Of a DNA stretch of 45,172 nt, positions 1-38,281 are shown piece after piece. The notes under the pieces are model-generated. The model did no database searches. It saw only the letters and a list, made by a program, of their open reading frames with translations, and was not told the DNA's origin. How positions within the stretch are numbered: position 1 is the stretch's first letter; each line of letters starts with the position of its first letter. The translations under genes were made by a program, and so were the position numbers. The DNA is from a virus. The stretch is from the IMG/VR virus record IMGVR_UViG_3300046000_009403, positions 1 to 45,172 of that record. One strand, written 5' to 3'.

Positions 1-2253
1 GGACTCAGGATCAAATGATTGAGCTTGTAGTTGAGCTACTTCCAGTTTAGTTTCTCTGTCTGTATCTATCTTATACCTTTCTAGTTCTAGGCGTGCAGCT
101 TCTAACCTTACTTTTCTATCTTCTATTTCTTGTGCTGACTGCTCTAATTGTTGTCTTATCTGTTGTTCTTGTTTCTGTGCTTCAGCTGCTTTCTCTTCAC
201 GTTGTTTTTCACGTAACTTAAGTTTGGCTGTTGCATTAGATATAGATTCATTTTGGTAAATCTCCAATACATCAGAAAGAGTGGCTGTACCATTTTGCAT
301 TGCAACTTGGAATAAGCCTTCAATTTTCTGCATTATTACTGCATCGTTAGAAGAATTAGTTACATGTAAGTCAAATTCTGAAGCTTGTATAGCTGTAAGT
401 TCTTCATCAGTTAAAACTAATGTAGTTAAGTCGTCTAGGATATACTGAAACTTCTTGGGGTTCTCTTTGAATTGCTGTATAGAGATATTCATTACTTTAC
501 GTAAAGTACGTAATTTAAACTTGTCATTCAACCTGAACCATTTTTCAGTTATATGAGAAGACTGAGTTACAGATCTTTCTACGTTACCTACTAATTCTCT
601 ATTCTGTATAGCTCCTTGTCTTTGTTGAGTTATACCAGTTACTTGATCCATACTTTGTAGTGTGGTATCTATAAGATTACCTATAACTGAAAGTGGGCCA
701 TTCTGAGCTGCTGAAATGATGTTAGCTCCTACTGTATTGTTTATTTGTCCTGCTGCTTTACCTGCCAATGCTCCATTGTCTATTTCAGCAGTAGGGTCAA
801 GAGGTATGGTAGCAGTAGTCTGCATGTAATTGATAAACTCTTCAAGATTCATGTTATCAGGCATCATTGAAGTAGGAAATACCAACATGTCAGGTAACAT
901 TAAGGAAGTTAAATGTTTCTTCTTGAAATAGAGTACATCTAACATATAATCAAAAGGTTTACAAATATCCATAAGGCTTTGTGCCTTTGAAGTATTTGTA
1001 TTATATATCTGTATAGTAACAGGAGGCTCTTGACGTGAGATATTATCTAAAGATGTAGAAAGGAATGGTACAGGTTCTATCTTTACGTATATATCGTAGC
1101 CAATCTTAAAACCTCTCCACCATTCATTTACCCACATTTCTTTTACTATCTCTTCACCTACTAGTTTATTAGGTTTGTACTTTTGGTGTACATACTTTTC
1201 TTCTTCCAGTCCTGTTTCTTCGTTGAAAGACTTAAGTAGTTTTACTTTTCTTTTTGATTTCCACAAGCAATGTACAACACGCATGTTACCATTTACATCT
1301 ATGTTAGTTGCAAATAGTGTTCTTTCTAATTCAGATACAGGGAATATACCTGAAGCTGTAATAGAATTATCAGGTATAGCTAATTCACCTACAGGGCCAT
1401 AAGTAGGGTAAGTCCAACCAGATGTACCACCAAAAGGCGAGATACCTTTAAAGGCTTGTAGTTTAGCAATGGCTTCTGTATCTAAGTAGGCGTGGAAATT
1501 GTCTAATACATTTGATACTGTTTGGTAACTTACCTCTACTAGTGCCTCAAGTCCTGATTCATCAATGGATTCAGCTGACATTATGGTAAAGATTTTTGTT
1601 GGGTCTCCTTTTCTTATGAAAAGTTCTTTACCTAATGCTTCTGTAAATACTATCTGTTCACCTGCAATCAGCGCATCTTCAAATGCCCTGTTAAATATTG
1701 TATCTAAATCTTGTTGTTTGTAATAATACTTTAATATCTTTTGAGCTCCTGACTCTGCTACATCTTGCCATTCATAGTTCATGTAATCAGAAAGCCTTTG
1801 TAATCTTGCTTGAGCTTCTTCTTCAGGTAGGTTACCTTGTAACATATCTACAAGTTCTTGCTTTACCCTACCCATCATTCTTTGTTCTTTTCCTGAGATA
1901 CCTTCAGCATCATTATTACTTAAGGTAACTCTCCAATCAAACCTACGGTTCATGTGCTCACCTACTAATAGGTCTATTTTGGCATTACCAAAGCCCATGT
2001 GTTCTAGCCTTGCAGGAAAAGAATTTAATCCTAGCCCATGTGGGTCTAGTATCTTCTCAAAATCTGCTTGGTTTATTACTCCTCTTTTTAGATTATAGTT
2101 GTTGAACTTATTATAAAGAGTTGGGCGTAATTGACGATTCTCAAACATAATGATGTTTTCAAAAGCATCCATGTTATTCTTCTGCCATTCTTTAGTAGCC
2201 TTCTTTTCATCAGACACCATCTGGTCTGGGAGTAATTTTACTTGTCCTAACAT
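1..2253 (-). CDS. Portal protein, crAss-like (partial, C-terminus beyond window)
   Basis: The frame is open for 751 codons from the ATG at 2253 to the window edge with no stop, so the C-terminus is missing. The portal forms the dodecameric ring at the capsid vertex through which DNA is packaged. Recognition rests on its place one base after the terL stop and on crAss-portal-like segments: an N-terminal region with GLGLNSFPARLEHMG, a middle with several tryptophans (WVNEWWRGFKIGYDIYVK), and a helical stem region with QSMDQVTGITQQRQG followed by ELVGNVERSVTQSSHITE. The last 90 or so residues in view are a charged, glutamine-rich coiled coil (EEKAAEAQKQEQQIRQQLEQ), as expected for the barrel or tail-proximal extension. 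Family assignment is from recall of crAss portals; no search was run. Confidence 0.85.
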   Translation of the reverse strand, partial: MLGQVKLLPDQMVSDEKKATKEWQKNNMDAFENIIMFENRQLRPTLYNKFNNYNLKRGVINQADFEKILDPHGLGLNSFPARLEHMGFGNAKIDLLVGEHMNRRFDWRVTLSNNDAEGISGKEQRMMGRVKQELVDMLQGNLPEEEAQARLQRLSDYMNYEWQDVAESGAQKILKYYYKQQDLDTIFNRAFEDALIAGEQIVFTEALGKELFIRKGDPTKIFTIMSAESIDESGLEALVEVSYQTVSNVLDNFHAYLDTEAIAKLQAFKGISPFGGTSGWTYPTYGPVGELAIPDNSITASGIFPVSELERTLFATNIDVNGNMRVVHCLWKSKRKVKLLKSFNEETGLEEEKYVHQKYKPNKLVGEEIVKEMWVNEWWRGFKIGYDIYVKIEPVPFLSTSLDNISRQEPPVTIQIYNTNTSKAQSLMDICKPFDYMLDVLYFKKKHLTSLMLPDMLVFPTSMMPDNMNLEEFINYMQTTATIPLDPTAEIDNGALAGKAAGQINNTVGANIISAAQNGPLSVIGNLIDTTLQSMDQVTGITQQRQGAIQNRELVGNVERSVTQSSHITEKWFRLNDKFKLRTLRKVMNISIQQFKENPKKFQYILDDLTTLVLTDEELTAIQASEFDLHVTNSSNDAVIMQKIEGLFQVAMQNGTATLSDVLEIYQNESISNATAKLKLREKQREEKAAEAQKQEQQIRQQLEQSAQEIEDRKVRLEAARLELERYKIDTDRETKLEVAQLQAQSFDPES

Positions 2254-5438: not shown

Positions 5439-5932
5439 TATATAAAATCTTGGTCTTCATCTGTGAAAGTACCTATGGTAGATACTTCAGGTACTTCTAA
5501 TACTTCATCTACAAAAGCATCAAAAGAAGGTTTATCTTCTTTAGGCTCTGCTTTTAATGTAGTTTCTTTTAGGGTCATTGTAAAACGTATTTCTAGTTTA
5601 TCGTCTATTGTTATTACTACTTTATTAGACAAGACATTGTTTGTGATAATACCTTTCTTTCTCAGTTTGTTTAGGTAAGTCTCAAACTTCTGTGAGTCTA
5701 TGTCAAATTCTTCCCTTATTTTTTTCTTTGTAGAAGAAGAAAACAATAGGTCATACCTTATTTCATCTGACTTTATTTCAGCTGCGTAAAAGTTATTATA
5801 ATACACAAGATAAGATAATACCTCTAGCTCTGAATCAGTTAGCTGTTCAGGGAGAGTCCAATTTATTGCTTTTAGGTAAGCTAAAAACAACTCTTGTTTA
5901 TTTTTTACCTTTATATTAAAGGGCTTTATCAT
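5438..5932 (-). CDS. Winged-helix-like protein, 164 aa
   Basis: Residues 30-100 look like a winged helix-turn-helix: LTDSELEVLSYLVYY, a second helix, then SQKFETYLNKLRKKGII followed by a short beta hairpin with VVITIDD. The C-terminal third is acidic and probably disordered (EPKEDKPSFDAFVDEVLEVP). It lies a few small genes upstream of terL. A DNA-binding role is inferred from the fold; it could be a regulator of the late genes or a terminase small subunit, but neither is shown. It overlaps its upstream neighbour by 17 bases. Confidence 0.6.
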   Translation of the reverse strand: MIKPFNIKVKNKQELFLAYLKAINWTLPEQLTDSELEVLSYLVYYNNFYAAEIKSDEIRYDLLFSSSTKKKIREEFDIDSQKFETYLNKLRKKGIITNNVLSNKVVITIDDKLEIRFTMTLKETTLKAEPKEDKPSFDAFVDEVLEVPEVSTIGTFTDEDQDFI

Positions 5933-6338
5933 CGTTTATTTCTTGTAAGTAGAGTTTAAATGTTATGCCATTTACTACTAATTTATTCTTGTCTGGACAA
6001 ATATCAGGATATTCTGTCATATACGCAAGTAATAAATCTTTAAACTCTGCTGTTGTAACAAATACCTTTACAGGTATATTTTTCTTTTCTTGTAGGGAGT
6101 GCTCTTTTATTTGGGCATACGTAAGGTGATACTTATATCTTCCTTGCAGGTAAAACTCGAATTGCAGTGTATAGGAAGGATCTGTTTCTTGTAGGTAGAT
6201 TTCTTCAAGTACTACATAATGTAACTCATTAGCAGCCATCTCCTCTTTCCAATCTTCAAGTTCCTGTAGAAATTCTACCTTAAACTCTTCTAACTTATTG
6301 TAGTCTTCAAAGTAGTTCCTAATTACCTTTGTGCGCAT
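5916..6338 (-). CDS. Hypothetical protein, 140 aa
   Basis: Not recognised. Mixed alpha/beta and rather acidic; the N-terminal helix (YNKLEEFKVEFLQELEDWKE) is followed by strands (HYVVLEEIYLQ, YTLQFEFYLQGRYKYHLT) and a C-terminal hairpin (KLVVNGITFKLYLQE). No membrane segment or signal peptide. Overlaps both neighbours by about 20 bases, so it is part of the leftward coupled chain. Confidence 0.7.
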   Translation of the reverse strand: MRTKVIRNYFEDYNKLEEFKVEFLQELEDWKEEMAANELHYVVLEEIYLQETDPSYTLQFEFYLQGRYKYHLTYAQIKEHSLQEKKNIPVKVFVTTAEFKDLLLAYMTEYPDICPDKNKLVVNGITFKLYLQEINDDKAL

Positions 6339-6615
6339 GAAATCCTACTGTTTTACCTTGTGTATGCTGCTCTTTCATTTCTGAAATTACTTTTACCGTG
6401 TGTTTTACTGTGGCTACTCCAAAATCCTGTATAAATACCTGACATCTATCTTTGTATGGTTTACCTGTTCGTATGTTTATTACTTCTGCATGTATGCCTA
6501 ACTGTGCTGGTTGGCAATATATCTTAAAAGATACATTCCTTTTCCAAAGTATTTCTATGGGCCCTTCTTCTGTTAGCTTGGTTTTATACAGGTCTGTTAT
6601 TCCTCTGAGTTCCAT
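6319..6615 (-). CDS. Hypothetical beta-rich protein, 98 aa
   Basis: Not recognised. Strand-rich in the middle (FKIYCQPAQLGIHAEVINIR) with a C-terminal helix (VKHTVKVISEMKEQH) and a tail rich in His and Gly. Start at the ATG at 6615, 19 bases inside the preceding 60-codon gene. It may be a small virion or regulatory protein; no function is visible. Confidence 0.65.
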   Translation of the reverse strand: MELRGITDLYKTKLTEEGPIEILWKRNVSFKIYCQPAQLGIHAEVINIRTGKPYKDRCQVFIQDFGVATVKHTVKVISEMKEQHTQGKTVGFHAHKGN

Positions 6616-6779
6616 ACAGTAACAACTAAAAAGTGTTTATCTTCAAGGCTAAAAGTTTCTGTTAAGTAATGTTCACCTTCAAGCATACAGGTTTGGAATA
6701 TCTTTTCTACGTTAAGCGTAGCTTTGATAAGTCCTGTTACTGATTCACATTCTATAGAGAAAACTCTTGGCATTGTCAT
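6597..6779 (-). CDS. Hypothetical small protein, 60 aa
   Basis: Not recognised. First gene after the terminator at 6820-6850, so it probably opens a new leftward transcript or is reached by read-through. There are two possible starts (ATG at 6779 and two codons later at 6773). A sequence TATATTTA reads on the minus strand shortly before the ATG (close to the Bacteroidota -7 motif TAnnTTTG), but no convincing -33 element precedes it. Confidence 0.6.
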   Translation of the reverse strand: MTMPRVFSIECESVTGLIKATLNVEKIFQTCMLEGEHYLTETFSLEDKHFLVVTVWNSEE

Positions 6780-6819
6780 AAGGTAAATATACGAAATAGT
6801 TTTTAATTAGTTGCATAAG

Positions 6820-6850
6820 CAAAAAGAGCTACCTTTTTATGATAGCTCTA
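6820..6850 (-). terminator. Intrinsic terminator after the tad2-like gene
   Basis: On the minus strand a 7-bp perfect stem, AGAGCTA (6849-6843) paired with TAGCTCT (6831-6825), with an 11-base loop, is followed by five T residues. It lies directly after the stop of the Tad2-like gene and would end the groEL-groES-tad2 transcript. Confidence 0.75.
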
Positions 6851-6866
6851 ATTGTTTTTAACTCTT

Positions 6867-7166
6867 CTAAGATATTTTCTTAAACTCCTTAAAGGCATGC
6901 CAATCTTCTGCTAACATATCAGATTGAGATGCTAACCAACCTGTAAGTACTTCACCTGTTGCTGTTAACATTCCGATACTCCCTAAACAAGGTAACGTAT
7001 CTCTATCTCCAAAAACTGAAAGTAGCATTGGGTCTTTAATCCATTCTTTTTTTACTTCTGTTGCTGGTAGTAGCCATAAATACATATTTTTACCATTCCA
7101 ACCTGCTCTATATACTTTAGAGCCTTCTTTCATTGCTTCAATTGCTTGTCCAAAATTCATGTTCAT
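6867..7166 (-). CDS. Tad2-like (DUF2829) anti-Thoeris protein
   Basis: 99 residues, the normal size for the Tad2/DUF2829 family. The family signature is plain at both ends: an N-terminal FGQAIEAMKEGSKVYRAGWN with GKNMYLWLLP, and a C-terminal ATGEVLTGWLASQSDMLAED followed by W. Characterised Tad2 proteins are small oligomers that bind and sequester the cyclic ADP-ribose-type signal made by Thoeris ThsB, and so stop ThsA activation. Here a middle segment, LPCLGSIGMLTATG, replaces the commoner lysine-rich loop, so ligand specificity may differ. It is the last gene before a terminator, downstream of groEL and groES. An internal ATG two codons later is an alternative start. Family assignment is strong; activity is inferred. 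Confidence 0.85.
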   Translation of the reverse strand: MNMNFGQAIEAMKEGSKVYRAGWNGKNMYLWLLPATEVKKEWIKDPMLLSVFGDRDTLPCLGSIGMLTATGEVLTGWLASQSDMLAEDWHAFKEFKKIS

Positions 7167-7177
7167 TAGTTTTAAAT

Positions 7178-7513
7178 TTATACTAGTGGATAATCTTCTA
7201 CATCTATATTGAAAAATCCTTCACTATCTCTGGTAAAAGAGATTTTTCTTCTTTCGGGGAATTCTTCTTCTGGCTCTATTCCTTCTAAAGTAGTATTATA
7301 AATAGGTACTTGAGCTGTTTGCCAAGGAAAACAGATTGGGCTTTTATCTACAGTAATTCCTATCTTTGTAATATTAGAAAATTCAGATGTAGCACTAATA
7401 GTGTAATTTTCACGATTTTCTAATAACCAATCTAATAAATTATTTACTTTAGATTGTTCAAAGCCTTTTTCAATGAATACTTCTTTAGTTAACTCATTTA
7501 TTTTTAGTTTCAT
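7178..7513 (-). CDS. Hypothetical protein, 111 aa
   Basis: Not recognised. Possibly an alpha/beta protein with an N-terminal helix (LTKEVFIEKGFEQSKVNNLL) and strand-rich C-terminal half (RRKISFTRDSEGFFNIDVED). Its ATG overlaps the groES stop by four bases (ATGA type), and the tad2-like gene follows after 11 bases, so all three are co-transcribed. The genomic link to chaperonin and anti-defence genes is the only hint of role. Confidence 0.7.
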   Translation of the reverse strand: MKLKINELTKEVFIEKGFEQSKVNNLLDWLLENRENYTISATSEFSNITKIGITVDKSPICFPWQTAQVPIYNTTLEGIEPEEEFPERRKISFTRDSEGFFNIDVEDYPLV

Positions 7514-7785
7514 AGTTCAACAAATTTACAAATTACATCTCCTACCCGCATAAGCAAGTATGCATTATCTACCATAAGTAAAGGTACTCCTGTATTAGGG
7601 CTAAACTGTACTACATCTCCTACTTTTAAGGTAGTTACCTGTTCTGATACAGCTTTTACTATGCCTTGTGTTGCAGGTGGCATTTTACTTTCAGCTAAGA
7701 ATAACTCTGATTCTTGCTTTTCCACTATTGGTTCTATAATTACTCTTTCTCCAAGAGGTACTGGCGTTAAGTTTGGTGCTTTCAT
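7510..7785 (-). CDS. groES: Co-chaperonin GroES (Cpn10)
   Basis: 91 residues, close to the usual 95-97. GroES caps the GroEL ring as a heptamer. Visible marks: the N-terminal strand LTPVPLGERVIIEPI (matches the canonical rPLhDRVlVk start), a mobile-loop region around residues 20-35 (EKQESELFLAESKMPPATQG), the strand GIVKAVSEQ, KVGDVVQFSPNTG, and the C-terminal YLLMRVGDVICKFVEL, equivalent to the yLilresDIlAvl of bacterial GroES. It lies seven bases after the groEL stop, the usual partner arrangement but with groEL first, the reverse of the standard bacterial groES-groEL order. Confidence 0.92.
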   Translation of the reverse strand: MKAPNLTPVPLGERVIIEPIVEKQESELFLAESKMPPATQGIVKAVSEQVTTLKVGDVVQFSPNTGVPLLMVDNAYLLMRVGDVICKFVEL

Positions 7786-7792
7786 ATATATA

Positions 7793-9358
7793 TTAATTAA
7801 AATTCATTGGGGTTTCTACATATTTTTCTGCTACTACACAAGATGTAGTTAGGAATAGTGCACATACTGATGATGCGTTTTCCAAGGCTACTCTTACTAC
7901 TTTTGTTGGGTCTATTACTCCTGTTTCTAAGAGATTTTCGTATTGTTCAGATTTGGCATTAAACTGCTTGCCTTTTTTTACTTTTGAGATTATAGGATCT
8001 TCTTCTAAGCCTGCATTAGATAATATTTGTCTTAAGGGTGCTTCTAATGCTTTCTTTATTAAGTCTATACCTGCTTGTATGTCTTTGTCTTTATTTGAAG
8101 AGATAGAAGATATTGCTTTTATAAATGCTGTTCCTCCTCCTGGTACTATACCTTCAGCTATTGCAGCTTTTGTTGCACAAAGTGCATCATCAATTCTATC
8201 AGCTTTTTCTTTCAGGGCTGTTTCTGTAGTTGCTCCTACATATAATACAGCTGCTCCTCCTGAAAGTTTTTGTGCTCTTTTGGTAAGTCTGTCTTGGTCA
8301 AACTGTAAATCTACGTGTTTGGCTTGTTCCTTTATTTGGGATACTCTTATAAGTATGTCTTCTTTTTTGCCTTTACCATTAATTAAGGTAGTAGAGTCTT
8401 TAAAGATTTTTATGTCTGATTGTCCTAAAGCAGATAATTGAGAAGATTCTAAAGATAAGCCTTTATCTTGAGTAATATATAAACCACCTGTTATGGTAGC
8501 TATGTCTTGTAGTAGTTCTTTCTTATGGTCACCATGTGCAGGAGCTTTGATAGCTGCTACTTTGATACCTTTCATTCTGTTTACTACAAGTGTAGAAAGA
8601 GCTTCATCTACTAAGTCTTCACAAATAATGACTAGTGCTCTTTGCTCTTTTACACAAGCTTCTAAGTATTTTAGAATTTGTGTAGTTTGGGTTATTTTTT
8701 CATCTGTAATAAGAATTAAGGCATCCTGGTATTCAACTACCATCTTATTAGGATCAGTAACAAAATATGGAGATATGTATCCTTTTTCTATCTTTAGTCC
8801 TTCTGTAACTTCTATGTATGTTTCAGTAGAACGAGATTCTTCTACAGTAATTAACCCTTCTTCTCCTACTAGATTTACAGCATCAGCTATTAGTTTGCCT
8901 ATTTCATAATCATTGTTAGCTGAAATAGTAGCTACATTTAATATTGAGTCTTTTTGTAGTAAAAGTGATTGAGCTCTTATAGAAAGTACTGCATCTTTTG
9001 TTGCAAGCTCTATACCTTTCTTCAGTTTTACAGGATTTACTCCTTGCGAAATAAGAAGAAGTCCTTCATTAAGAATGTGTTGAGCTAAAACTATAGAAGA
9101 AGTTGTACCATCACCTGCTACTTCCAATGTTTTGTTAGCTATCTCTTGGAATAACTGTGCTCCTAGTCCTTCATTTGGATCTTCAAGCTTTATTGAAGCT
9201 GCTACACTAACACCATCTTTAGTTATGTGTGGTGGATTAAATTGACGTGAGAGGATTACATTCCTTCCTTGTGGCCCAAGAGTACCTTTTACAGCATTTG
9301 CTAAAATGTTAGCACCTTTCTGAAGGGATCTTGTGTGAAATTCTATTATTTTGCTCAT
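7793..9358 (-). CDS. groEL: Chaperonin GroEL (Cpn60)
   Basis: 521 residues from the ATG at 9358; an in-frame TTG at 9379 is unlikely because it falls in the promoter. It is complete in all three domains. Equatorial: ANAVKGTLGPQGRNVILSR and the ATP-binding GDGTTSSIVLA with the catalytic Asp; later AIAEGIVPGGGTAFI. Intermediate: RIDDALCATKAA carries the Asp that hydrolyses ATP. Apical: IEKGYISPYFVTDPNK and KGIKVAAIKAPAHGDHKKEL, retaining the hydrophobic residues that bind substrate and GroES. It lacks the C-terminal GGM tail and ends in VVAEKYVETPMNFN. It probably folds virion proteins. A Bacteroidota-type promoter sits immediately upstream, so it can be transcribed on its own. Phage-encoded GroEL is rare, and with GroES rarer. 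Confidence 0.95.
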   Translation of the reverse strand: MSKIIEFHTRSLQKGANILANAVKGTLGPQGRNVILSRQFNPPHITKDGVSVAASIKLEDPNEGLGAQLFQEIANKTLEVAGDGTTSSIVLAQHILNEGLLLISQGVNPVKLKKGIELATKDAVLSIRAQSLLLQKDSILNVATISANNDYEIGKLIADAVNLVGEEGLITVEESRSTETYIEVTEGLKIEKGYISPYFVTDPNKMVVEYQDALILITDEKITQTTQILKYLEACVKEQRALVIICEDLVDEALSTLVVNRMKGIKVAAIKAPAHGDHKKELLQDIATITGGLYITQDKGLSLESSQLSALGQSDIKIFKDSTTLINGKGKKEDILIRVSQIKEQAKHVDLQFDQDRLTKRAQKLSGGAAVLYVGATTETALKEKADRIDDALCATKAAIAEGIVPGGGTAFIKAISSISSNKDKDIQAGIDLIKKALEAPLRQILSNAGLEEDPIISKVKKGKQFNAKSEQYENLLETGVIDPTKVVRVALENASSVCALFLTTSCVVAEKYVETPMNFN

Positions 9359-9376: not shown

Positions 9377-9407
9377 CAAATATAGGTATTATTTTGAGAC
9401 AAACAAG
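9377..9407 (-). promoter_or_regulatory. Bacteroidota-type promoter for groEL
   Basis: On the minus strand TATATTTG (9384-9377) is an exact match to the -7 consensus TAnnTTTG. Nineteen bases upstream is CTTG (9407-9404), three of four to the -33 consensus TTTG. The groEL ATG lies 18 bases after the -7 box, which leaves a very short leader. It would give groEL-groES-tad2 a transcript independent of the upstream nuclease gene. Confidence 0.65.
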
Positions 9408-9411
9408 AAAA

Positions 9412-10113
9412 TTATGGTCTTATATCCAATAATTTTAAAATATCTTTTTCAAAAATACAAATTTCAGTTCTAAACATCCATATTAGGTATTTTGGATCTT
9501 CTGCTAAAAGCTCCTCTACAGACTTACCCTTATGTTTACCAAATCGTACTATATCTTTTCTTTTATAGGTAGATAGTTTTTTAGGATTTTTAAAGCTGTG
9601 TAAATACTTTTTAAATGCTTCTATGGTTATATTTTTAAGCAAAGCATTGCTAACTCTCTTTACAGTATATCCCATTTGTTTAAGTATATGATCTCTTACA
9701 GAATCCTCAAACATCTTTATTTCTTCAAAGTGCTGGCCTCCATCTAGTTCTAATATATACTTATCTTGTATGCAGAAATCTACAATAATGAATTTACCTT
9801 CACGTAGGTGTATTATCTTTTGTGCTTCATACTTTACAAACGCTAGGTCTAATAATGTACAGATATGTTGCTCTGTCTCAGTCATAGACTTAAGTAACTT
9901 TTCTTTAAAGTACTCTGCTGTTTTTAACTGGCTTTCACTTTTAGCCATGTGTAGATCTTTTTCTTTTTGTACAGCTTTTTTAACTCTTTGCTGAACTAGT
10001 TTATTTATTTCAGCATACATTTTTTCATTTTCTTGACTTTCTTTAAACTTTTTAATGTTCCTTTCTCTTAGTCCTTGTATCTGCTGATCACTGTATTTTC
10101 TTTTGTTTTTCAT
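9412..10113 (-). CDS. DUF559/Vsr-like nuclease fused to ExoX-C-like domain
   Basis: 233 residues in three parts. Residues 1-75 are a basic, heptad-like helix region (NIKKFKESQENEKMYAEINK). Residues 85-170 resemble a PD-(D/E)XK endonuclease of the DUF559/Vsr type: KFIIVDFCIQDKYILELDGG followed by QH, then a helix and YTVKRVSNALLKN; the D of VDF, E of LEL and the GGQH turn fit the active-site layout. Residues 190-225, VRFGKHKGKSVEELLAEDPK then YLIWMF, match the small domain found at the C-terminus of exonuclease X and in DUF3820 proteins. First gene of the leftward operon. It may be a DNA-processing or homing-type nuclease; target unknown. Confidence 0.7.
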   Translation of the reverse strand: MKNKRKYSDQQIQGLRERNIKKFKESQENEKMYAEINKLVQQRVKKAVQKEKDLHMAKSESQLKTAEYFKEKLLKSMTETEQHICTLLDLAFVKYEAQKIIHLREGKFIIVDFCIQDKYILELDGGQHFEEIKMFEDSVRDHILKQMGYTVKRVSNALLKNITIEAFKKYLHSFKNPKKLSTYKRKDIVRFGKHKGKSVEELLAEDPKYLIWMFRTEICIFEKDILKLLDIRP

Positions 10114-21566: not shown

Positions 21567-21784
21567 TAAGAAATTTAATTTTATTAAGTGTTTTATTAAT
21601 ATCTTGTAATTCTAAAGATGTTAATTTAACTGAAAATAAACCAATTACAAATTGGAATTTACAAGACAGAATTATTATTTTTGATGAAAGTGGATATAAA
21701 GTATATAGAATTTGGGATAAAACAAGTAATTCATATGTTTTTGTAGGAACCTCTAATAGTCATATTTCAATAGCAACAAGATGA
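21563..21784 (+). CDS. Small lipoprotein, 73 aa
   Basis: The N-terminus MIRNLILLSVLLISCNSKD is a textbook lipoprotein signal: a charged start, a hydrophobic core and a lipobox LLISC with the Cys at residue 15. After cleavage about 58 residues remain, ending in a short strand-rich domain (DRIIIFDESGYKVYRIWDK). The S/N/K residues after Cys give no clear rule for surface export in Bacteroidota. Phage lipoproteins are known in superinfection exclusion. Overlaps both neighbours by four bases (ATGA type). Confidence 0.7.
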   Translation: MIRNLILLSVLLISCNSKDVNLTENKPITNWNLQDRIIIFDESGYKVYRIWDKTSNSYVFVGTSNSHISIATR

Positions 21785-22299
21785 TAATCATAGCATTAAA
21801 AGGCAAGAATGGTAGTGGTAAATCCACAGTAGCAGCTATGTTAGCTAAGAAATTAGATGAAAAAGGTATTAGTAATAAAGTATTATCTTTTGCTGAACCT
21901 TTGAAGAAGATAGTTAATTACATGTATGATGATGTAATAGACTTTGAAAATAGGAAAGAAAAAGAAAGTAATAGAAATTTATTAGAAACTACTGCTGATG
22001 CTATCAAATCTAGTTTCAGTTTTAATCCTTTCGTATATCAAGTATGTAGACAATTAGATTATTGTTATTCTTATGATATAGAAGTTTGTATAATATCTGA
22101 TTTAAGATTTGAATCTGAATCTGATGGAATATATAGTTGGTTAGAAAGTGATGATTTAACTATAGTAGAGATAACTAATCCTTTAACTGACCTTAATCCA
22201 CCAGAATATGATGAATTGTTGATTAAATCAGATAAAACGCTTATCTTTGATAGTTCTATTGAAACTCAAATTGAGTTATTGATTGAAGAATTACTTTAA
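21781..22299 (+). CDS. Deoxynucleoside monophosphate kinase (P-loop), 172 aa
   Basis: Phosphorylates dNMPs to dNDPs for phage DNA synthesis. Walker A is GKNGSGKST at residues 8-16 of MIIIALKGKNGSGKST; the LID/NMP regions are helical; ICIISDLRFESESDG-like text (it reads VCIISDLRFESESDGIYSWL) matches the dNMP kinase motif where an Asp and Arg follow a strand (DVRF in T4 gp1-like enzymes). It is shorter than T4 gp1 (241 aa), similar to the compact dNMP kinases of other phages. A tRNA gene follows 14 bases after its stop. Confidence 0.8.
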   Translation: MIIIALKGKNGSGKSTVAAMLAKKLDEKGISNKVLSFAEPLKKIVNYMYDDVIDFENRKEKESNRNLLETTADAIKSSFSFNPFVYQVCRQLDYCYSYDIEVCIISDLRFESESDGIYSWLESDDLTIVEITNPLTDLNPPEYDELLIKSDKTLIFDSSIETQIELLIEELL

Positions 22300-22313
22300 A
22301 TAACATTATATAT

Positions 22314-22388
22314 CTCCCTGTAGCTCAGTCAGTATAGAGCAATTTCCTTCTAAGAAATCGGCCATAGGTTAAAATCCTATCAGGGAGA
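22314..22388 (+). tRNA. tRNA-Arg (anticodon TCT)
   Basis: Acceptor CTCCCTG (22314-22320) with CAGGGAG (22381-22387), discriminator A, no encoded CCA (ACA follows). D-stem GCTC/GAGC, anticodon arm ATTTC-CTTCTAA-GAAAT with anticodon TCT, variable loop of five, T-stem ATAGG/CCTAT. It reads AGA, a very common codon in these AT-rich genes. The D-loop AGTCAGTATA and the T-loop TTAAAAT deviate from the consensus: A replaces G18 and A replaces C56, so the usual D-loop/T-loop elbow contacts are weakened. Confidence 0.92.
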
Positions 22389-22465
22389 CAAAAGCAAAGT
22401 ACATACAGTTACAGTTCTTTAATTTGCTTATTCATGTAAAACTACGAGAAATTAAGTTCTAAGTA

Positions 22466-34993: not shown

Positions 34994-35282
34994 TACAGAA
35001 AAACTTGTGAAATGTATGTTTCTTAGTAATGCTCTTTTGTATTGCTATGATGATTTGATGGTAAAACCTTTGATAGCTAAAAGGATTAGCAGTAAAGTAA
35101 ATCCAGCAAGAACTGCAATAGAAAAAGAGTTACAATTTTTTATGAAAGATTTGTATGAGGAGGATAATAACAAAACACAAGAAATATTGGAACAGTTAGA
35201 AGGTATTGCACAATCAATAAGTAAATTACAATTACACGAGTTGGAAGAAGTAAATAAAGCGTTGAAAAATGATAATAGATAA
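34968..35282 (+). CDS. Hypothetical helical protein, 104 aa
   Basis: Not recognised. Helical throughout (SLETVLSDTEKLVKCMFLSN, IEKELQFFMKDLYEEDNNKT, QLEGIAQSISKLQLHELEEV). Overlaps the rIIA-like gene by 14 bases. Confidence 0.6.
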   Translation: MSLETVLSDTEKLVKCMFLSNALLYCYDDLMVKPLIAKRISSKVNPARTAIEKELQFFMKDLYEEDNNKTQEILEQLEGIAQSISKLQLHELEEVNKALKNDNR

Positions 35283-37389
35283 AGAAAGTAAAGACGTAAT
35301 TAAATCAGAAGAATTAGGCAGTAGTATTAAGTATAGTATAGATACAGAGAATTTTGGACTTTTATTTAAGATGTTACGAGATAATCTGTATCAGAATAAA
35401 GAGTACACCATCATTAGAGAATATGTAAGTAATGCCATTGATGCACATACAGAGTATGGAGTAGATAAACCTGTAGAAATAGAATGGGTTGATGCTTCAG
35501 AACTTATGGGTATTGATACTCAGCTAATTGTACGTGATTTTGGTATAGGTCTAAGTCCTGATAGAGTAACCAATATATTTGGTAAGTACCTTAGTTCTAC
35601 TAAAAGAGCTGATAATAATTCAATAGGTGGATTCGGAATAGGTAGCAAATCAGCGTTTAGTTACACAGATAGTTACTATGTAAAAACATATTATGATGGT
35701 ACAGAGTATCAGTATAATTGTTATATAGATGAAGATGATTTAGGTAGTATTACTCTTATGTTTCAGCAACCAACTGAAAGGGGAAATGGTACTGAAATTA
35801 TTATACCTGTAAAACAAAGAGATAAGTATTTATTTGAACAAGCCATTACTAATCAGTTATTATTCTGTAATATAGAAACTAAGAATCTATCTGTTGATTT
35901 AAAGAAAGAAGTTACATACGAAGATGATGATTTTATTCTTACTAACAGAAGTGAAGAATTACGTTTGCTGAATGGTAAAATATTATATAAAGTAGATTTA
36001 CGTAATCCTCAGTTAGAAGAATTTAGTAATTTACGTAATTTAGACGGTGTTGTAGTTAAATGTAACATAGGAGAAGTAAAAGTTACTTTGTCAAGGGAAG
36101 ATTTAGACTATACAGGTAAAACAATAGAGTTGTTAAAATCTAAATTTGCCAAAGTAAAAGAAAAGTTAAAAGAAGGCTACATAGAATCTGTTAAGAATTG
36201 TACAACTTTCAGGGAATTTAATAATCTTTTGGAAAAGCAGATTAAGCCTAAAGTACAGATTAATAAGTATGATAATGGTAAAATCTTTGTGTGGAAAGAC
36301 TTTGAAGATGTAGTATTTAATAACTACAGACCTTTTATGCTGATAGAGGAAGGGTATTATGCACAGATAGTTAATAAGGTAACTAGTAGTTATTGGAATA
36401 CAACTTCTAAGAGAGCTTATACTTCTTCTACAAACTTTTACAACCATCATTATGAACCTAATCTTTATACATTATACCAAGAAGATGGTGTATGGGATAA
36501 AGAAATGCAAGAATGGTTAGGGTTAAATGCAAGAGCTATAAAGGTAGATATACCTGCGCTAACTCCTAAAGCAGATTTAGTAGCTGACCTTGTATATTTC
36601 TGTGAAGATGTAATGAAAGAAGTAGATGCTCTTCCTAAGCTAAGTGAAAAGAGAGATGAGTTTCTTGTTTATCGTAAAGAACAAAGGAAGTTAGGTAAAG
36701 TAGCTAATGTAAGATTAAATGGTGTATATCCTGCTGTAGAAGCTAATTATCCACGTTGGGCAGAGGAGGAATTAATATGGACTAGAGCTGATGTTAAACT
36801 TACTGAAAAAGACTTTAAGGATTATGTATTTGTTGGTAACCAGGAAGATAAACCAAGATTAGATGCTTTTCTTAAGTTATGTAGAGTTTTGTTAGATAAG
36901 CAATACAAAGGTTATATTATTTCAGTTCCTAACACAAAACATTTTACACAAAGAAGAGCAATACACATTAAAGATGTTATGAAAGATCATCCAGTATTAA
37001 GAGAATTAGTCACCAAAGCTGTTTTAAGAGAGTTTATTAATAAGAATGGTATAAGAAGTCAATGGGTTAAACATAATGGTTATATGAAAGTAATAAGCCC
37101 TTATTATACTAATATAATGACTAAGTTAGAGAATGTTCCTACTGCAAGATTAAATGATTCTGACTTATTAGACGAACTTAAAGACATAGGACTTAAGAAT
37201 GGTTGGTATAATAGAGATATTAATCTTGTTCATCATTATAACAACTTTATGAAAGGTGCAGAGTTATTTAAGTATGTAGAGTTAACAGCAGAATCACTGC
37301 CTTTAGTAAAAGATTATTTACGGGAAAAAGGTAAGTTAAAAGAAGAAGTAGCTATAAATCAACTAAAACTAGAAGAAATCAATGATTAG
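35269..37389 (+). CDS. rIIA-like protein (GHKL ATPase), 706 aa
   Basis: The counterpart of T4 rIIA, linked to membrane effects and resistance to superinfection or host exclusion. N-terminal GHKL ATP-binding domain: N box REYVSNAIDAHTEYG at about residue 47, G1 box VRDFGIGLSP, and G2 box GGFGIGSKSAFSYTD. The long C-terminal part is alpha/beta and shows no recognised domain. Length is close to T4 rIIA (about 725). It overlaps rIIB-like by eight bases, the same order as in T4. Confidence 0.9.
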   Translation: MIIDKESKDVIKSEELGSSIKYSIDTENFGLLFKMLRDNLYQNKEYTIIREYVSNAIDAHTEYGVDKPVEIEWVDASELMGIDTQLIVRDFGIGLSPDRVTNIFGKYLSSTKRADNNSIGGFGIGSKSAFSYTDSYYVKTYYDGTEYQYNCYIDEDDLGSITLMFQQPTERGNGTEIIIPVKQRDKYLFEQAITNQLLFCNIETKNLSVDLKKEVTYEDDDFILTNRSEELRLLNGKILYKVDLRNPQLEEFSNLRNLDGVVVKCNIGEVKVTLSREDLDYTGKTIELLKSKFAKVKEKLKEGYIESVKNCTTFREFNNLLEKQIKPKVQINKYDNGKIFVWKDFEDVVFNNYRPFMLIEEGYYAQIVNKVTSSYWNTTSKRAYTSSTNFYNHHYEPNLYTLYQEDGVWDKEMQEWLGLNARAIKVDIPALTPKADLVADLVYFCEDVMKEVDALPKLSEKRDEFLVYRKEQRKLGKVANVRLNGVYPAVEANYPRWAEEELIWTRADVKLTEKDFKDYVFVGNQEDKPRLDAFLKLCRVLLDKQYKGYIISVPNTKHFTQRRAIHIKDVMKDHPVLRELVTKAVLREFINKNGIRSQWVKHNGYMKVISPYYTNIMTKLENVPTARLNDSDLLDELKDIGLKNGWYNRDINLVHHYNNFMKGAELFKYVELTAESLPLVKDYLREKGKLKEEVAINQLKLEEIND

Positions 37390-38281
37390 TTACATTGCAA
37401 GTGAACAAACAATTACCATTAACATTAATGGTGCTCCCAGGTTAATAAAGATTAAATCTAAAGACCATAGGAATTATATTATAAGATTATTGACTGAATG
37501 TCAAAAGAATGAAAGTGCAGAGAATTTAGAAGAATTATGGATTGCCTTAACTCCATATAAGCGTGTAGCACATAAAGTAGATGGACGTATAGAGTATGTA
37601 GAAGATTTAGGTAAACTATTTGTTAAAGGAATAGAAAGACCTTTACCTGAAGTACTACAAAAGCGTATTATGTCTTTCTTAGATGATGAGTTACCCATAG
37701 ATGCTTTAATTAAGTTCTGGGAGAATTGTCAACTAAATCCTGAATTTAGAGCTATTGAAGAGCTTTATTTATTCTTGGAGCATAATGGTCTTCCTATTAC
37801 AGATGATGGCTGTTTTGTAGCTTATAAGAAAGTAGATAAAGTAGACTATGATGCTGAAGCTCCAGAAGAATTTGTAGGTCTTTATATAGATAAATTAGGC
37901 AACTGTCGTAATAACAAAGGACATTTTGTTGGGGGTGAAGTAAAAGAAAGGTTCAAAGCATGGGTAAATAATCCACAAGAATCTTACAAACTTGTTGATA
38001 ATAGGACAGGTACTTTTGATAATAGTGTAGGACAAACTGTATCTATGCCTAGAAAAGAAGTTAATAATGATAGAACTATTACGTGCTCACACGGGCTTCA
38101 TTGTAGTAATTGGGATTATGCTAAAAACTATAGTGGCAATGTTTTAGTAATGGTTAAAGTTAATCCTTCTGACGTGGTATCAGTACCTTTGAACTACTCT
38201 AATAAGAAGCTCCGTTGCTGTAAGTATGTAGTTCTTGGGATTATAGATAATGAAATGTCTGCTAAATACTTAGAAGTATAA
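37382..38281 (+). CDS. rIIB-like protein, 299 aa
   Basis: Partner of rIIA. The middle and C-terminal parts carry the family's marks: LYLFLEHNGLPITDDGCFVA then YKKVDKVDYD; RTGTFDNSVGQTVSMPRKEV; the CSxGLH motif in ITCSHGLHCSNWDYAK; and VLVMVKVNPSDVVSVPLNYS. It is similar in size to T4 rIIB (312). rIIA and rIIB products together protect the phage against some host exclusion systems in T4; the function here is inferred. Confidence 0.9.
   Translation: MISYIASEQTITININGAPRLIKIKSKDHRNYIIRLLTECQKNESAENLEELWIALTPYKRVAHKVDGRIEYVEDLGKLFVKGIERPLPEVLQKRIMSFLDDELPIDALIKFWENCQLNPEFRAIEELYLFLEHNGLPITDDGCFVAYKKVDKVDYDAEAPEEFVGLYIDKLGNCRNNKGHFVGGEVKERFKAWVNNPQESYKLVDNRTGTFDNSVGQTVSMPRKEVNNDRTITCSHGLHCSNWDYAKNYSGNVLVMVKVNPSDVVSVPLNYSNKKLRCCKYVVLGIIDNEMSAKYLEV

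Follow-up and report, generated by a model that had tools for sequence, protein, structure and literature searches.

In a crAss-like phage, the stretch of DNA between the groES stop codon and the terminator of the chaperonin transcript behaves as a slot for cargo, and in the phage described here the cargo includes a gene whose product, judged by sequence and modelled fold, truly belongs to the Tad2 family. The reading as a whole, in which a Tad2 nucleotide sponge is carried as exchangeable cargo behind groEL-groES, we consider probable. The window, meaning the whole stretch of 45,172 nucleotides that was analyzed, had been given a preliminary description from its sequence. The Tad2 protein is a new member of a family already known; the slot is the interesting part, and the exchange of cargo between siblings is more interesting than the features named in that description. 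The features of the region are as follows.

1-2253, minus strand: portal protein, running off the window; 25% identity to the portal of Crassvirales phage cr125_1
2254-4263, minus strand: terminase large subunit (TerL), crAss-like; phrog_6681 (8e-105) and TerL matches
6597-6779, minus strand: 60-aa gene that opens the downstream unit; its protein is identical in six of six contigs
6784-6791, minus strand: TATATTTA box, a possible promoter, in a conserved gap ahead of the downstream unit on the terL side
6825-6849, minus strand: intrinsic terminator closing the groEL-groES-cargo unit; a hairpin and then a U-run, kept in six of six contigs
6850-7509, minus strand: variable cargo slot, from the groES stop to the terminator; four contents in six contigs, flanks conserved
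6867-7166, minus strand: tad2-like gene (LGSI-type Tad2, 99 aa); PF11195 at 80.9 bits, and an AlphaFold2 model (pLDDT 91.7) matching all solved Tad2 structures
7178-7513, minus strand: orphan ORF of 111 aa in the cargo slot, overlapping groES by 4 bp
7510-7785, minus strand: groES, 91 aa; PF00166 (5.8e-11), 91-100% identical in siblings
7793-9358, minus strand: groEL; PF00118 (1.7e-62), start taken from an upstream alignment
9377-9406, minus strand: promoter-like TTG-N19-TATATTTG (Bacteroidota type) ahead of groEL, its core conserved in siblings
9412-10113, minus strand: DUF559 (PD-(D/E)XK-like) and ExoX-C gene, an insert present only in the window and L002

The slot emerges from comparison of the window with contigs L002, L225, L226, L227 and L228, all six being metagenome assemblies. 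Searching with GroEL brought up four contigs of this lineage in addition to L002, and the 60-aa gene as query retrieved these five alone. Among the six contigs the flanking proteins are 93-99% (GroEL), 91-100% (GroES), 100% (60-aa protein) and 90-100% (TerL) identical. The flanks are mostly 84-99% identical in DNA, and the alignment between contigs stops at the slot and restarts at the terminator. The slot holds the 111-aa orphan and Tad2 in the window and L002, a different, 110-aa Tad2 of the HgmTad2 type in L227, and an unrelated 118-aa protein in L226; it is empty in L225 and L228. Conserved flanks, differing contents at one site and an empty site are all found, and in this small sample of six contigs and four contents the stretch behaves as a cargo slot. 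The differences might instead be chance indel noise or artefacts of assembly, given that there are only six contigs, two pairs of which share their slot content, and that all were assembled from metagenomes. We regard this as quite unlikely, because the four contents are clean and each lies between the groES stop and the one terminator, the same contents recur in separate assemblies (the window and L002; L225 and L228), and the flanking DNA is so similar.

The two Tad2 genes found in the slot do not look descended from one resident gene. The L227 protein is 53% identical to HgmTad2 and 33% identical to the window Tad2, and in a tree of 193 relatives it groups with HgmTad2 and SptTad2 (100/99) while the window protein lies in another clade (99/93); a tree forcing the two together was rejected (p-AU 0.005). 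For the 111-aa orphan and the 118-aa protein of L226, no match in Pfam or PHROG rose above noise, and IMG/VR contained no relatives outside their own lineage, the orphan occurring in this phage and L002. A single-sequence model of the orphan was uninformative (pLDDT 41). In L225 to L227 the groEL promoter region directly follows the upstream gene, with no DUF559 nuclease-like gene between them, so that this gene is a second variable insert. In L225, alone among the siblings, a further ORF of 60 aa (6571-6753) separates groEL from groES and marks a third insertion point in the operon.

The genes behind groEL are packed tightly. Their order on the minus strand is groEL, groES, the 111-aa orphan, tad2 and the terminator, followed by the 60-aa gene and, further on, terL and the portal gene; groEL and groES are separated by 7 bp, groES and the orphan overlap (-4 bp), and the orphan and tad2 are separated by 11 bp. 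The listed groEL ORF begins at a TTG at 9379, and upstream alignment gives a conserved ATG at 9358 that is probably the real start. The terminator, read from 6849 to 6825, folds at -15.1 kcal/mol (z -3.7). This packing, ending in an intrinsic terminator, sets groEL, groES, the orphan and tad2 apart as a unit from the terL-portal operon, and a placement of tad2 inside the terL operon was rejected because the terminator separates the two. The packing, the common terminator and the position of every sibling's cargo before it make the predicted joint transcription of tad2 with groEL-groES well supported, and every cargo would accordingly be made with the chaperonins. The preliminary description had proposed both this co-transcription and the position of tad2 at the end of the transcript; the layout agrees with the former, and the hairpin and U-run with the latter.

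Ahead of groEL, the TTG-N19-TATATTTG element presumably resembles the primary Bacteroidota promoter, and the TATATTTA box before the 60-aa gene is similar to it. The siblings retain the core TATATTTGCTCAAAACAAT, although the sequence further upstream differs. Counting motifs gave no case for a Bacteroidota promoter and was discarded as an approach: within the window TANNTTTG is not enriched (76 observed, 72 expected), and TTG-N17-23-TANNTTTG occurs 15 times with 9.7 expected, which is not significant, as one random sequence also reached 15. Since the motif is not above chance, it is conservation that argues for the groEL promoter candidate.

The tad2 ORF occupies exactly 6867-7166 on the minus strand and starts with ATG; the plus strand there is full of stops. 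Its product matches PF11195 (Tad2-like) over profile positions 1-71 of 73 at 80.9 bits (E 1e-22), about three times the curated Pfam cut-off of 25 bits. It also matches PHROGs 1048 and 872 (E 1e-27 to 1e-23), both of unknown function, and among PDB sequences SptTad2 (5e-19), SPO1 Tad2 (1e-15), HgmTad2/AcrIIA7 (7e-15) and the Myroides Tad2 (4e-14), entries whose ligands include gcADPR, His-ADPR and cGG. Contig L002 encodes an identical protein. An AlphaFold2 model of the single chain, built with 34 aligned sequences as input, reached a pLDDT of 91.7, and in Foldseek (E 1.7e-10) the top 24 matches to it were all Tad2 chains. In VIA-align, solved Tad2 structures span Z 11-14 (11.3-13.6), including SptTad2 with cGG at 13.6, ModTad2 with His-ADPR at 12.2 and SPO1 Tad2 with gcADPR at 11.4; the first unrelated chain follows at Z 4.3. 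The GWNGK loop, the WLASQ strand and the DxLAEDW helix (here D(M)LAEDW) are intact, and these motifs fall in elements named as the gcADPR pocket in a review (PMC12043709). The Pfam score, the PDB matches and the structural comparison of the model together place the protein in the Tad2 family by sequence and by fold, as had been claimed. The middle loop, LPCLGSIGMLTATG, had been called unusual, and that view does not hold: CLGS occurs in 13 of the 193 relatives and LG[ST][I/V/L] in 38, only G65 and L67 depart from the R/C and K usual in the clade, and the loop is a subfamily trait common to a clade of gut-phage Tad2s.

The window Tad2 likely sequesters a signal made by TIR enzymes, gcADPR or His-ADPR, and perhaps cyclic dinucleotides (CDNs) too, by analogy with the ligands of its solved relatives (gcADPR, His-ADPR and cGG) and published work (PMC12043709, PMC13299392). 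The protein would form a tetramer that holds the gcADPR or His-ADPR made by TIR-domain enzymes and thereby keeps the ThsA effector inactive. The distance between the tryptophans of GWNG and WLAS, 54 residues in the window protein (77 minus 23), is 48 in SPO1 Tad2 and ModTad2, 60 in SptTad2, 66 in HgmTad2 and 72 in the L227 protein. The insertion between beta2 and beta5 is thus intermediate in length and does not narrow the candidate ligand to one. The window protein could act mainly as a sponge for cyclic dinucleotides of CBASS (cGG, 3'3'-cGAMP), resembling SptTad2 and HgmTad2 in this, and have little influence on Thoeris; its nearest solved relative in sequence and fold is SptTad2 with cGG, its motif spacing exceeds that of SPO1 Tad2 and ModTad2, and CDN binding has been tied to the beta2-beta5 insertion (PMC12043709). 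We judge this unlikely, as the insertion is shorter than in SptTad2 and HgmTad2, the window protein falls in another clade, and SPO1 Tad2 does not bind 3'3'-cGAMP (PMC11722364). The two explanations overlap, since dual binding is possible.

HgmTad2 was first named as an anti-CRISPR, AcrIIA7, so membership of the Tad2 family alone does not fix the target. Entries for HgmTad2 bear the label AcrIIA7 or inhibitor of type II CRISPR-Cas, and tad2 sits in the groEL-groES unit, which might suggest that the Tad2 fold serves here as an anti-CRISPR or in a housekeeping role alongside the chaperonin or the virion. Such a role seems very improbable. A chaperonin partner would not be expected to be absent from L225 and L228 and replaced in L226 and L227 while the chaperonins are conserved, and the invariant ligand-loop motifs speak for the binding of a small molecule. 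A sponge for TIR-made signals remains our preferred reading. An extension of it, which we put forward as speculation that may well prove wrong, is that the slot is a dedicated counter-defence site of this lineage, with the 111-aa and 118-aa proteins as unrecognized anti-defence factors and the LGSI-clade Tad2 having a ligand preference of its own, unlike those of the SPO1, Hgm/Spt and Myroides proteins.

The position of tad2 had also been described as odd, an anti-defence gene in a probable late operon. Terminase and a chaperone are among the late genes of crAss001, in which transcription of middle and late genes probably falls to the host RNA polymerase (PMC8375218); according to a review, the virion polymerase reads early and middle genes and the host polymerase late ones (PMC10136315). 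With a host-type promoter before groEL, tad2 would still be middle or late, although it lies in a unit of its own, which a terminator separates from the terL-portal operon. The oddness itself is weakened, because in staphylococci it is the major head protein that activates Thoeris (PMC12578639). Tad2 would probably be produced together with the chaperonins, in the middle or late phase, as capsid protein, the known Thoeris trigger, accumulates, and a sponge made alongside capsid-phase proteins would be in time. Expression of the sponge would be linked to the chaperonin and capsid phase, which fits capsid sensing by Thoeris.

By the sequences of its TerL and portal the phage is crAss-like, as had been proposed. 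No match to TerL reaches 60% identity, and the closest, at about 35%, are Crassvirales records, among them PhiCrAssBcn and records named uncultured phage cr followed by a number; phage cr125_1, with the 25% identical portal, is also one of them. A member of the Crassvirales would be expected to have a genome of about 97 kb, a giant virion RNA polymerase and the crAss MCP. The window is a 45-kb fragment, and the lengths of two sibling contigs, 94 and 96 kb, agree with that genome size. Elsewhere in the window, a dNMP (deoxynucleoside monophosphate) kinase-like gene (phrog_139, 21781-22299) adjoins a tRNA-Arg gene (22314-22389), and homologues of rIIA and rIIB lie side by side (35269-38281).

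Tad2 genes also occur in other phages. In L003, a distant crAss-like phage (TerL 28-30% identity), a Tad2 domain 78% identical to that of the window is fused to an N-terminal domain (5809-6276) and is oriented opposite to terL, which suggests that Tad2 has been transferred between crAss-like lineages. In L003, L037, L038, L040, L041, L074 and L085, a Tad2 gene lies no more than a few kb from a TerL that distantly resembles that of the window. In L004 to L008, phage contigs of 23 to 303 kb, Tad2 carries an uncharacterized C-terminal extension about 150 aa long. A general pairing of GroEL with tad2 was rejected, as only L002, of the same phage lineage, has GroEL among eleven other records, and neither groES nor groEL was found in the other Tad2 loci examined. 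A literature search, mostly of papers open without subscription, returned none that connects Tad2 with crAss-like phages. New findings could come from the slot and its two orphan genes. Swapping of Tad2 types among close relatives, with unknown genes as alternatives, offers a direct handle for finding new counter-defence genes in an abundant phage group. Different slot alleles would match different host defence repertoires, and the slot lets one test whether alleles of a signal sponge track those repertoires.

Each of the solved Tad2 proteins resembles that of the window in fold. SptTad2 (PDB 8WJD, cGG complex; Z 13.6) is about 40% identical and shares GWNGK and WLASQ, but has a longer insertion (60 against 54 residues between the motif tryptophans) and belongs to another clade. 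HgmTad2/AcrIIA7 (8KBI, 8KBJ, 8KBK; Z 12-13) shares the motifs and is 36% identical; its close relative is the L227 allele. ModTad2, from a Myroides odoratus prophage (9EIB with His-ADPR, 8V3E apo; Z 12.2, 37% identity), is likewise an element of a Bacteroidota phage, although its insertion is shorter and it has WTPS where the window protein has WLAS. SPO1 Tad2, Gp34.65 (8SME, 8SMF, 8SMG; Z 11.4-11.6, 38% identity), has an identical GWNGKNM, but comes from a Bacillus phage and has a shorter insertion and WVPS. For the slot, the nearest comparison is with the antiviral-gene hotspots of P2-like phages and P4-like satellites (PMC9122126), where variable genes likewise occupy one fixed position in phages that are otherwise related. 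Those hotspots hold defence systems, whereas the slot described here holds cargo of a counter-defence type in the chaperonin operon of a crAss-like phage.
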